From: Actinomycetota bacterium
GTDB lineage: Bacteria; Actinomycetota; Actinomycetes; S36-B12
Direction: 5' to 3'
Length of the DNA stretch: 41,520 nt
Assembly: GCA_030652695.1 (NCBI GenBank)
Contig: JAUSQD010000075.1
Span: 1-41,520, forward strand
Position numbers and translations under genes: made by a program. The notes beneath the pieces were generated by a model. It did not search any database. It saw only the letters and a program-made list of their open reading frames with translations, and was not told where the DNA came from. Below are positions 32,945 through 41,520 of the stretch, piece after piece. The first letter of the stretch is position 1; each line of letters begins with the position of its first letter.

Positions 32945-34246
32945 CTATCCGCCCAGGATGACCTTGCCTGACGAGGTGTCGATGTACTTGGCACCACAGG
33001 TCGGCTTTGCATCAGGTACGAGATCAGTGCCCTTTGCGATCATGAACCAGTTGCAGACAGCTGGATTGCCGTTGGGCAGGATGCCCGGGCCCTTGAAGCT
33101 GATCTTCTCTGGCACCAGTCCGCCACCGTCATAGTTGGTGACATTGCGCAGAGCGCTGATGAACGACGCTCGCGTTGGGCACTTGCCGGCGACCTTGAGA
33201 CCCTTGATCAACAGGTCGGCACCGAGGAAGCCCATAGGCGCTGCTGAGGAATAGGGGTTCAGGCCGGCTGCCTTCATACCTGCCGCGTAGGTCTTCACAG
33301 CGCGGTTGTTCACACCCACGGGAACTGATCCGTAGGTCGTGCCCAATGCACCATCAAGTGCACCATTGGCAGTCCTCAGCACAGAGGGATCTGAAAGGCC
33401 CACGATGCTGACGCCCTTCAGGGTGACACCCTGCTGCTTCAATGCGCTCATGATGGAAATCGCGCCGTCGATGAATCCAACGATGATCGCGCCATCTGCG
33501 CCGGAGTTCTTGATGCGCAGCGCTGTTGACGTGGCGTCGTGAGTTCCCTGAGGCTCATCGGAGATTCGAAGAGCCTGGGTCAGCCCGCCGACAAACGGGA
33601 TGAGACCCGCAGTCGCGTTGCCCGCTGCGGATGCACCAGTGCTGATGTGGTTGATGTTGGCAACCTTGGTGACTCCCATCTGCTTCAACTTCTCAAGCAC
33701 GCCAGTGCTGGCGATTGCGGGGTTGGATGAAACGGTCGCTCCCGTCACGCCAAATGCATTGCGGTCTGTACCGAAGGCTGGGTTATTGAATCCCGTGACC
33801 GGGATTCCCTGGTCTTTCAATGTTGGATACATCGAAGTCGTGGCGGTCTGAGCATTCAGGCCGAAGACGTTGTCTGACTGCACGGCCTTTTGCATCGCGG
33901 TGATCTGGCCGCTGCCATTGGACTGATCGTCATAGACCTTGTAGACCAACTTACGGCCGTTGATCCCGCCCTTGGCGTTCTCCTGGTCAATGCGCAGCTG
34001 CGAGGCTTCCGAGGAACCGATGTAGTTAGCCGACGCGGCGCCCGTCTTTGGGCCAATCCAGCCTACGTTGATCGTGGTCGCAGTCACGCCTGGAGTGGCT
34101 GGGCACGAGGCATTGCTCGTGGCAGCAGTGGGAGCTGGCGTTGGAGCGGCGGCGGCGCTGCCTGCGAAGCCCGCAAAGAGCAATGATGCGCTGGCGCCTG
34201 CCGCAAGAACGACCGTGCGCTTTCGAACTTGATGAGGACTAACCAT
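32945..34246 (-). CDS. ABC-type (branched-chain amino acid-like) periplasmic substrate-binding protein, copy 1
   Basis: Signal peptide RKRTVVLAAGASASLLFAGFAGSAAAA; INVGWIGPKTGAASANYIGSSEASQLRIDQENAKGGINGRKLVYKVYDDQSNGSGQ. Confidence 0.85.
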   Translation of the reverse strand: MVSPHQVRKRTVVLAAGASASLLFAGFAGSAAAAPTPAPTAATSNASCPATPGVTATTINVGWIGPKTGAASANYIGSSEASQLRIDQENAKGGINGRKLVYKVYDDQSNGSGQITAMQKAVQSDNVFGLNAQTATTSMYPTLKDQGIPVTGFNNPAFGTDRNAFGVTGATVSSNPAIASTGVLEKLKQMGVTKVANINHISTGASAAGNATAGLIPFVGGLTQALRISDEPQGTHDATSTALRIKNSGADGAIIVGFIDGAISIMSALKQQGVTLKGVSIVGLSDPSVLRTANGALDGALGTTYGSVPVGVNNRAVKTYAAGMKAAGLNPYSSAAPMGFLGADLLIKGLKVAGKCPTRASFISALRNVTNYDGGGLVPEKISFKGPGILPNGNPAVCNWFMIAKGTDLVPDAKPTCGAKYIDTSSGKVILGG

Positions 34247-34327
34247 TGAAACCTCCATGTGCAGATCACTGGTAGTGGTGACGGTTTGGCACTGCTGAGC
34301 CAGTGCCGCGCCCAATCGGATGATTGC

Positions 34328-34363
34328 CAGAATCGGATTCTGTTAAGCCGGAATCACATTCCG
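34328..34363. promoter_or_regulatory. Tandem palindromes CAGAATCGGATTCTG and CGGAATCACATTCCG
   Basis: Two perfect CNGAAT-N3-ATTCNG dyads (34328-34342 and 34349-34363), centres 21 bp apart. Confidence 0.65.
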
Positions 34364-34519
34364 CCAGATCAGAACAGCGTTTGTTATGCAACCGTTACCG
34401 GAAAACTCGGCATTTCAACTCAAATCAACCAGATCCTGCAGGTGACATGCGCAATGCACGGCTGGAAGACTCCACTGCAGAGGCGGCGATCTCCACGACA
34501 GCACTCAGAAGGGGAAGTC

Positions 34520-34936
34520 ATGAGCGAAATGCAGGATTGGAACGCTCAGATCATTGAGGAGTTTCGAGCCAACGCTGGACAGGTGGGCGGCAACTTTGCC
34601 GGAGCACCCATGCTGCTGCTACACACCACTGGGGCGAAATCGGGGCTCGAGCGAGTCAATCCGATGATGTACCAGGACCTCGGAGATGGGCGTATAGCCG
34701 TGTTCGCCTCAAAGGCTGGAGCCGACAGCGACCCCGACTGGTATCGCAATCTCGTCGCCAATCCTGTAGTCCAGGCTGAGATCGGCACCCGCACGCAGGC
34801 ATTCGTGGCTCGCACAGCCAGCGACGAGCGAGACCACATTTGGACCAAGCAGAAGCTGGACTATCCCGGCTTTGCACAATACGAGTCCATGACGAGCCGA
34901 GTGATTCCGGTGGCCATTCTCCAACCGGCTGACTGA
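34520..34936 (+). CDS. Deazaflavin-dependent nitroreductase-family protein
   Basis: APMLLLHTTGAKSGLERVNPMMYQ...RIAVFASKAGADSDPDWYRNLVANPVVQAEIG. Confidence 0.9.
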   Translation: MSEMQDWNAQIIEEFRANAGQVGGNFAGAPMLLLHTTGAKSGLERVNPMMYQDLGDGRIAVFASKAGADSDPDWYRNLVANPVVQAEIGTRTQAFVARTASDERDHIWTKQKLDYPGFAQYESMTSRVIPVAILQPAD

Positions 34937-35401: not shown

Positions 35402-36658
35402 TCAGACGGACGCGGCCTCATTCATCGCGCGCCATTCATGCTTGGAACGCAAAGTGGTGTCCACATCAGGCGACATCGCGCGAAGACCGCCAACAGTGGC
35501 GTCCTCCTTGCTGATGTGCTTGAAGGTGTCCCACTGGAAAAAGCGAGCGCTGTTCTCCCAGGTGAACATATGGATCTCATTGTCAGGCACGCCTGCGCCG
35601 TTCATTTCGTTCAAGACGAATTCCGGGGCGTCGGGAAAGATCGAATCAGAGTGTGGGTAATCGCATTCCCACGCGATTACCTCAAGGCCGATGTCGTGTC
35701 GCACCTTCAGTGCAATGGGATCGGTGACATAGCAGGCAAGTGAGTGCTCCCGGAAGATGTCGCTGGGGAGCTTGTCTCCAAAGTCATGCCCAAGCCACCG
35801 CTGATTTGTGTAGTGACGATCGCAACGGTCCAAGTAGAAGGGGATCCAGCCGATCCCGGCCTCGGACCAAGCTACCTTCAGATCCGGGTACTTCCAGAAC
35901 GCTCCACCCCAGAGCAAATCCTGCGCCGCGAATGTCGACACCTGCGTCGCAAGAATGATCATGTTGTCGATCGGCGCTGCCGGGGCCATGTTGATTGCCC
36001 CGAAGCCTTGACCAATGTGCAGACACATCACGACCTGCAGTTCCGAGCAGGCCTGGAAGAAGGGCCCCCAGTACTCAAGATCGTGGTAGCTGGGCAAGCC
36101 CTGAATATGTGGCAGTTCAGGCATCGTCACTGCATGACAACCCTTGGCAGCCACGCGATGAACTTCAGCAACCATGGCGGCCTGATCCCACACAGGAATG
36201 ATGGCCAAGGGAATGAAGCGTCCAGGGTAGGCGGCACACCACTCGTCGATATGCCAGTCGTTGTAGGCCTTCAGCATGATGAGCGCGAGATCCTTGTCAG
36301 CTGCCTCTTGGAAGAAGCGGGCACTGAATCCTGCATAGGACGGGAAGCACATCGAGGCCAGGATGCCGTTGCGATTCATATCCCGCACTCGTTCGTGGAT
36401 GTCGTAGGCGCCTGGACGCATCTCTGCGTAGGACGAGGGGTCAAAGCCCCACTCCTCCTTTGGCCAGCCGACGACTGCATTCATGCTCGTGGACATACTC
36501 CACTTTCCTTGGAAGGTCCACGATTCAATGCCTCGCTCATCGACAAGCAGCTTGGGCGCCTGATCCTTGTAGGCCGCCGGGAGGTGCGCGTCATACATAT
36601 CGCTGGGTTCGATGACGTGGTCGTCATTGCTGATCAAGATCATGTCGTTGACGTTCAT
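35402..36658 (-). CDS. Amidohydrolase family 2 protein (metal-dependent hydrolase)
   Basis: ISNDDHVIEPSDMYDAHLPAAYKDQAPKL...FPSYAGF...LHIGQGF...WECDYPHSDSIFPDA. Confidence 0.88.
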   Translation of the reverse strand: MNVNDMILISNDDHVIEPSDMYDAHLPAAYKDQAPKLLVDERGIESWTFQGKWSMSTSMNAVVGWPKEEWGFDPSSYAEMRPGAYDIHERVRDMNRNGILASMCFPSYAGFSARFFQEAADKDLALIMLKAYNDWHIDEWCAAYPGRFIPLAIIPVWDQAAMVAEVHRVAAKGCHAVTMPELPHIQGLPSYHDLEYWGPFFQACSELQVVMCLHIGQGFGAINMAPAAPIDNMIILATQVSTFAAQDLLWGGAFWKYPDLKVAWSEAGIGWIPFYLDRCDRHYTNQRWLGHDFGDKLPSDIFREHSLACYVTDPIALKVRHDIGLEVIAWECDYPHSDSIFPDAPEFVLNEMNGAGVPDNEIHMFTWENSARFFQWDTFKHISKEDATVGGLRAMSPDVDTTLRSKHEWRAMNEAASV

Positions 36659-36833
36659 GCAGTCTGCCCCCTCGTTGCCGAGCCTGGCTCCAAAAGCCTT
36701 TGCTCATTTTGCAGAGCCCATGCATCGCAGGCAAGAGTCAAGGCGATAGACGAGACAGAAGTCGCTGAATTTGTTCCACTTCGTCGCAATGGTGCGATAT
36801 CGAGATCTCCCATCAATGCGTAGCATCGCGGTC

Positions 36834-37460
36834 ATGGACGTCGCGCACCGTCTGGCAATCCAGTCGCCCAGCACTCCCAAGCCTGAGGCGCACTCCTTCG
36901 AGAGCATGCACATCCGATTGCTTGCCACTGCCCTTGAAGTCATGAACGAAGTGGGCTACGACAACGCAACGGTAGGTGCGATTGCATCGCGAGCATTTGT
37001 CAGTCGTTCAACTCTGTATCGTCACTTCGAGAACAAGTCGGACATGCTTCAGCAGATTCTTCAATGGCACCAAAAGAGCGTGTTTGAGTCGTGCTTGAAG
37101 TTGACGCGCATTCGACCAGGTGACAAAGAGGCGCTCAGCGGGTGGCTGGAAGACTTTCCCGGGCTGTATGAATGGCCCAGCGATGCGATCATCGACAGTC
37201 ACGTGAGCGGCGATCGACTGATCAACAGAATTCACGACTCCCGGCGCGCGGCGGAAAGCGTGATTCGTGCCTGGGAGCGATCTGGGTGGACCACGACCAG
37301 CGCCACTCCGGTTGAACACATTCTGCTGCTCTTTCAGTTGATGACCCACTGGTGTCGCTACCGTCTTGCCTTCGGAACTGAGCGAGCCAACTTGTCCAGG
37401 GAGGCGCTGCTCGACATCGTCAGTCGTGAGCTTGCCTCCGTTTTCGTGCCGAGCAGATAG
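36834..37460 (+). CDS. TetR/AcrR-family regulator
   Basis: HIRLLATALEVMNEVGYDNATVGAIASRAFVSRSTLYRHFENKSDMLQQIL. Confidence 0.9.
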   Translation: MDVAHRLAIQSPSTPKPEAHSFESMHIRLLATALEVMNEVGYDNATVGAIASRAFVSRSTLYRHFENKSDMLQQILQWHQKSVFESCLKLTRIRPGDKEALSGWLEDFPGLYEWPSDAIIDSHVSGDRLINRIHDSRRAAESVIRAWERSGWTTTSATPVEHILLLFQLMTHWCRYRLAFGTERANLSREALLDIVSRELASVFVPSR

Positions 37461-40773: not shown

Positions 40774-41520
40774 CTAGCTGAGAACGACCTTGCCGGTCGA
40801 GGTGTCGATGTACTTGGCACCACAGGTGGGCTTGGGATCAGCGATGAGGTCGGTGCCCTTGGCGATCAGGTACCAGCCGCACAGAGCGGGGTTGCCGTTT
40901 GGCATGAGTCCTGGGCCCTTGAAGCTGACCTTCTCAGGAACCAGTCCGCCACCGTCGTAGTTGGTGACGTTGCGCAGCCCATTGATGAACGAGGCACGCG
41001 TTGGGCACTTGCCGGCGACCTTCAGACCCTTGATGAACAGGTCAGCTCCCAGGAAGCCCATGGGCGCACCTGAGGAGTAGGGGTTCAGGCCAGCGGCCTT
41101 CATGCCTGCTGCGTAGGTCTTGACTGCGCGGTTGTTCACACCGACCGGCACGGAGCCGTAGGTCGTGCCCAATGCGCCTTCAAGAGCACCGTTCGCGGTC
41201 TTCAGCACTGCTGGGTCAGACAGACCCACGATGCTGACACCCTTCAAGGTGACACCCTGCTGCTTCAGTGCGCTCATGATCGAGATGGCGCCATCGATGA
41301 ACCCAACAATGATCGCGCCGTCAGAGCCGGAGTTCTTGATGCGCAGTGCAGTGGAGGTTGCATCGTGTGTGCCCTGAGGCTCATCGGAGATGCGCAGTGA
41401 CTGAGTCAGTCCTGGTACGAATGGGATGAGACCAGCAGTGGCGTTGCCGGCTGCCGAGGCACCCGTGCTGACGTGGTTGATGTTTGCGATCTTGGTGACG
41501 CCCATCTGCTTCAACTTCTC
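40774..41520 (-). CDS. ABC-type substrate-binding protein, copy 2 (truncated by window end)
   Basis: About 90% identical by eye to the C-terminal half of the 32945..34246 product. Confidence 0.85.
   Translation of the reverse strand, partial: EKLKQMGVTKIANINHVSTGASAAGNATAGLIPFVPGLTQSLRISDEPQGTHDATSTALRIKNSGSDGAIIVGFIDGAISIMSALKQQGVTLKGVSIVGLSDPAVLKTANGALEGALGTTYGSVPVGVNNRAVKTYAAGMKAAGLNPYSSGAPMGFLGADLFIKGLKVAGKCPTRASFINGLRNVTNYDGGGLVPEKVSFKGPGLMPNGNPALCGWYLIAKGTDLIADPKPTCGAKYIDTSTGKVVLS

Follow-up and report, generated by a model that had tools for sequence, protein, structure and literature searches.

The regulators closest to the one considered here are the TetR-family proteins FadR, of Bacillus and Thermus, and KstR, the latter recognizing a single site of the form TNNAAC-N2-GTTNNA. 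Outside this family, the ARG boxes bound by E. coli ArgR are made of GAAT...ATTC half-sites arranged as TGAAT-N4-ATTCA, with boxes 21 bp apart, and the LexA box reads GAAC-N4-GTTC. Another TetR protein, Rv3160c of M. tuberculosis, is associated with palindromes proposed to block the -10 region (PMC7810876). On the metabolic side, ACAD10/ACAD11 and LvaA/LvaC act on 4-hydroxyacyl-CoAs through a kinase and acyl-CoA dehydrogenase pair, which phosphorylates the 4-hydroxyacyl-CoA and then eliminates the phosphate (PMC11342911; PMC12440821).

In the system described here, a TetR protein designated c11, with its relatives, most likely binds a tandem 21-bp operator and represses a catabolic operon. Palindromic operators, a TetR fold, acyl-CoA dehydrogenase target genes and a probable acyl-CoA ligand are shared with FadR and KstR; what differs is the operator core, a pair of RGAAY-N3-RTTCY dyads 21 bp apart, and c11 is only 12-22% identical to these proteins. 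As with Rv3160c, a TetR repressor is combined with palindromes proposed to lie over the -10 region, but in that case inverted repeats of 12 bp and 8 bp are nested, and the target is an oxygenase (PMC7810876). The likeness to ACAD10/ACAD11 and LvaA/LvaC lies in the APH gene of the operon, whose product is homologous to the kinase domain of ACAD11 (8v3v, E 4e-24) and which stands beside an acyl-CoA dehydrogenase (ACAD) gene. Unlike in ACAD11, the functions are divided between genes, the arrangement of P. putida lva, and a similar substrate is predicted from the APH homology and the gene pairing. Lipid-type genes with a TetR operator are already familiar. The operator architecture and the regulon appear undescribed, the comparison with the 11 motifs of a mycobacterial TetR survey (PMC4482099) extending to its main text, in which the letters of the present motif do not appear; literature searches for the literal motif gave no match.

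Tandem dyads between a receptor and a reductase gene

The window, that is, the whole stretch of 41,520 nucleotides analysed, is contig C13 of an assembly (G000) of 2.16 Mb in 199 contigs, with a completeness of some 90%. Its sequence stops at 41520, short of the upstream region of a second receptor copy. The elements of interest lie in and around a 273-bp intergenic region:

32945-34246, minus strand: Peripla_BP_6 substrate-binding protein (the receptor), likeliest target of the site in the source genome
34328-34342: dyad 1, CAGAATCGGATTCTG (CAGAAT-CGG-ATTCTG), centre 34335, 6/6 complementary arms and 3-bp spacer; its RGAAY-N3-RTTCY core spans 34329-34341
34349-34363: dyad 2, CGGAATCACATTCCG (CGGAAT-CAC-ATTCCG), centre 34356, 6/6 complementary arms and 3-bp spacer
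34371-34383: weaker dyad 3, AGAACAGCGTTTG (AGAAC-AGC-GTTTG), with 2 mismatches to RGAAYNNNRTTCY
34383-34398, minus strand: GTAAC-N6-ATAAC direct repeat, 152 bp before the receptor start
34520-34936, plus strand: F420H(2)-dependent quinone reductase / deazaflavin-dependent nitroreductase family protein, the alternative target
36771-37460: TetR gene of the window, 2.4 kb from the dyads

An earlier note on this DNA had described dyads 1 and 2 as perfect 15-bp palindromes with centres 21 bp apart, flanked by a divergent receptor gene starting at 34246 and a deazaflavin-dependent protein gene starting at 34520. All of this proved correct at the coordinates listed. The weaker dyad 3, which keeps the 21-bp register after dyad 2, had been overlooked. 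Within the 41.5-kb window, the pattern CNGAATNNNATTCNG finds two matches, exactly dyads 1 and 2; dinucleotide shuffles of the window gave 0.05 matches on average, and two matches in none of 100. The whole assembly contains three matches, the third of which (C42:1077) was rejected as a promoter site, since it lies past the 3' end of a gene resembling CoA-transferases. A sigma-70 consensus scan of positions 34200-34560 found no match.

The statement that the dyads correspond to no familiar regulator box also holds. Both LexA and ArgR were ruled out by the 3-bp spacer, where the ARG box has N4; in addition, no SOS genes were recognised near the sites, and the associated genes are catabolic, not arginine genes, with a TetR protein as the co-occurring regulator. 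Membership in a KstR regulon was excluded by a spacer of 3 bp rather than 2 and by the NCBIfam KstR model, which gives c11 a score of 22.5 vs a cut-off of 280. Nor do the dyads match the GlnR box (a GTnAC-N6 direct repeat), the GlnR-like repeat at 34383-34398 being separate from them.

The probable paired operator in the genus and its candidate regulator

The pattern GAATNNNATTC N{4,24} GAATNNNATTC, in which the spacing was left free, was run against nine genus genomes, with a reversed pattern as control. All nine matches, from five genomes, had a gap of N10, corresponding to 21 bp between centres, and the control gave none. When up to two mismatches were allowed, the site was present in every one of the nine genomes; the refined pattern RGAAYNNNRTTCY-N8-RGAAYNNNRTTCY has a perfect match in each of them. 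The pairs occur in two contexts. One is the promoter of an APH-SDR-acyl-CoA dehydrogenase-quinone oxidoreductase operon, which includes the ACAD gene in most genomes. The genes transcribed divergently from it are usually a lipoprotein/TauE pair; one genome has, on the other side, an amidohydrolase gene related to that at 35402-36658 of the window. The second context is the promoter of a separate SDR-acyl-CoA dehydrogenase operon. A scan of about 200 kb surrounding these loci met perfect 13-mers almost exclusively in such pairs, the one exception being intragenic.

The gene-proximal half-site reads TATTCT in 8/8 APH promoters, 4/4 SDR promoters and six of the seven distant ACAD promoters tabulated, and this sequence fits the TAnnnT -10 hexamer. 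The ATG follows TATTCT by exactly 6 bp in all eight APH promoters and in one distant ACAD promoter, a spacing that would resemble that of leaderless promoters. Since the proximal dyad usually contains the putative TATTCT -10 box, repression by occlusion is the likely mechanism. A repressor bound to this dyad would cover the -10 box and block RNA polymerase. Another dimer would occupy the dyad lying two turns further upstream, placing both TetR dimers on the same face of the helix.

The candidate regulator, c11 (source-genome copy G000:C196:9136-9768), has a TetR_N helix-turn-helix (PF00440, E 3e-10). It is carried by 8/9 genus genomes vs 0/76 other genomes of the family, adjoins the operon in convergent orientation in six genus genomes and is the single member of its subfamily detected in the three genus genomes scanned. 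In the source assembly, contig C196 (L362) bears c11, the quinone reductase, the SDR and the C-terminal part of APH, while contig C64 (L173) bears the APH start with its operator; apparently, the two are one locus divided by the assembly. The array is absent from c11's own promoter in the genus, a point that counts against the assignment. A near-palindrome of a different kind, TAGTTGAATGNTAAACTA, is conserved in the stretch separating c11 from a pirin gene, or in the equivalent position, and overlaps the pirin promoter (L162, L164, L165, L166, L168, L170 and L185); it is possibly the site of another regulator.

Compared with NCBIfam, c11 reaches no equivalog cut-off. Its AlphaFold model (mean pLDDT 80.5) is nearest in Foldseek to Bacillus FadR, KstR, BkaR and FasR, the best hits being 5gpc, 3whc and 3mnl. 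Given this FadR/KstR-like fold and an APH resembling the ACAD11 kinase, an acyl-CoA-type compound is the leading guess for the ligand. Such a ligand would release the repressor from its predicted core target, the adjacent APH-SDR-acyl-CoA dehydrogenase-quinone reductase operon, which in turn is predicted to feed 4-hydroxyacyl-CoA-type substrates into beta-oxidation. Binding, repression, the direction of control, the ligand and the window gene that would respond are all points that we infer from sequence.

Co-occurrence of operator and TetR in distant genomes

The strict pair pattern was scanned, on DNA alone, over GTDB genomes and over 395 genomes of the class. In the latter set, eight genomes outside the genus were matched, against none with the control. 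The DNA-only scans led to at least 11 distant loci with a TetR homologous to c11, the identity being 30-42% in most; no such protein is encoded in any of 101 control loci. Among the matches listed, the distant loci include those of Gordonia hankookensis (TetR gene at L277:4203-4853), Acidimicrobiia, Myxococcota/Deltaproteobacteria and others, and several have an acyl-CoA dehydrogenase 48-62% identical to that of the genus. The converse search, with the Gordonia TetR protein as sole query against the 395 genomes, yielded 30 loci. In all of the 12 best orthologs (at least 48% identity) the array is found at the gene's own start with 0-2 mismatches, an outcome equalled in 0/100 shuffles; the 18 more distant TetR loci lack it at that position. 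The co-occurrence of operator and TetR holds from the DNA side and from the protein side.

A further group of loci was termed mycobacterium-like, a descriptive label and a reading resting partly on gene order. Here, the TetR gene lies inside an APH-SDR-ACAD-TetR-QOR operon. The promoter of this operon has AGAATGCTATTCT, or a sequence little different from it, in 21-bp register with degenerate dyads; just one dyad is perfect. With the TetR gene inside an operon that has the dyads at its promoter, absence of the array from the gene's own start, and from that of c11, finds an explanation. In the tree, c11 groups with the mycobacterium-like TetRs (support 0.82) and lies outside the clade bearing the array at its own gene start, which likewise speaks against c11 as the regulator. 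Most likely, the regulator-operator system spans freshwater actinobacteria, Gordonia, mycobacterium-like genomes and Myxococcota. Reciprocal footprinting of this kind gives an uncharacterised TetR subfamily its predicted operator and regulon, links the c11 subfamily with an actinobacterial pathway of ACAD11 type, and, as Gordonia hankookensis is available in culture, opens the nature of the ligand to experiment.

Pairs with the same 21-bp spacing were encountered in other settings and left out of the regulon. The Bacteroidetes genome CTSoil_022 (L186, L188, L192, L194, L195, L200 and others) has, among the matches listed, dozens of GAAT-N3-ATTC dyads arranged strictly in tandem at 21 bp; in AT-rich loci, mostly of this genome, 74 of the 81 pairs listed fall outside long ORFs. 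These look like a different system, as do the AGAATAATATTCT-type dyads that occur in pairs with 21-bp spacing in Bosea, Methylovirgula and Beijerinckiaceae (L211, L212, L239, L242, L266), where the gene just downstream of the L212 and L239 pairs is one that we take to resemble family 2B encapsulin shell proteins. Finally, L193 (Acidobacteriaceae TAA 166) and L222 (Duganella) have GGAAT-N3-ATTCC pairs, spaced by 21 bp, at the start of a TetR gene whose sequence shows no relationship to c11; in L193 this gene is divergent from one resembling FAD monooxygenases. Such loci suggest more than one origin for the design of two dyads 21 bp apart.

The window copy and its competing readings

The window operator scores 29.8 bits toward the receptor and 24.9 bits toward the reductase, below all of the training sites (mean 44.7 bits, lowest 36.9). 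In place of TATTCT it has GATTCT/CATTCC, on neither side matching the -10 form. It is separated by 82 bp from the receptor start and by about 157 bp from the reductase start. A repeat of the form RTRAC-N6-RTRAC (an 11-bp direct repeat), which we take to resemble the GlnR box of other actinobacteria, is found in 36/52 receptor upstream regions of the genus, against a shuffled mean of 3.6 and with a gap of 6 only; the GTAAC-N6-ATAAC type occurs in the window and in the receptor promoters of L007, L083, L092, L100, L102 and others. In the most closely related receptor paralogs the repeat stands at about -107 to -118; for the window gene the figure is -152. As the operator falls between this GlnR-like box and the receptor start, its position is suited to repressing the receptor promoter, and it is plausible that the receptor gene is an extra target in the source genome. 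There, c11 would control the receptor gene, the F420-dependent reductase or both in concert with the catabolic operon. It is only tentatively that we put forward the reading in full: a widespread, unnamed TetR of a 4-hydroxyacyl-CoA pathway (ACAD11-like kinase plus dehydrogenase), with operators that embed the -10 box of its core promoters, might in one freshwater actinobacterium have recruited one of some twenty receptor paralogs, its operator being set between a nitrogen-type activator box and that gene, and so coupled uptake to catabolism. This would suggest a route by which a member of a large receptor family gains transcriptional control of its own.

The earlier note had proposed a new regulator site controlling the receptor gene. 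The paired operator being conserved genus-wide, with sites elsewhere at catabolic operons and TetR genes, the first part is supported and the second only partly. As a general statement, a dedicated regulator of receptor genes is quite improbable: proximity to the receptor start and the slightly higher score in that direction speak for it, but the genome-wide scan for further receptor sites found none in the source assembly at up to two mismatches, and no paired dyads were found upstream of the other receptor copies in the regions examined in the genus. Moreover, the window copy is the sole paired site at a receptor gene in the genus, the other mismatch-free sites are all at catabolic operons, and the element common to receptor promoters is the GTAAC-N6-ATAAC repeat instead. 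Service to the reductase, instead of or alongside the receptor, is a more serious possibility, if short of likely. The best matches to this protein elsewhere in the genus are just 33-40% identical, from which the neighbourhood appears specific to the source genome, paralleling a site unique to that genome, and oxidoreductases are typical of the regulon. Against this stand the greater distance to the reductase start, the lower score and the lack of TATTCT on that side.

It seems improbable that the same operator is bound by another protein, whether the LuxR-type product of an operon neighbour (L166:11272-12021) or the TetR of the window. The LuxR gene is kept next to the operon and the window TetR gene is close to the dyads; yet the DNA-only search ended, among the matches listed, at c11-type TetRs in distant phyla. 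In c11-type proteins the recognition helix is nearly identical (SN[QDEK]AFYR), whereas that of the window TetR differs (SRSTLYRHF), and the promoter of the latter is without a strong dyad. Least probable of all is that the palindromes are due to chance or are a non-functional relic. The window copy does have no embedded -10 box and relatives have no copy at the orthologous place; a BLAST search with the intergenic region of the window retrieved no homologous region from the genus loci examined. But the shuffles described above never produced two matches, the 21-bp register is that of every other genus pair, and the next-best score within the window is 5.5 bits. The preferred reading, a c11-type repressor acting at this operator, accommodates the receptor as one target in addition to the catabolic operons.

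The receptor itself belongs to a large set. The source assembly gives 20 protein matches to its family, 18 of them close (E <= 7e-36) and several truncated at contig ends. This one Peripla_BP_6 family is widely expanded, often in tandem, across all nine genus genomes, and the expansion is specific to the genus, the other genera of the family giving only distant matches.
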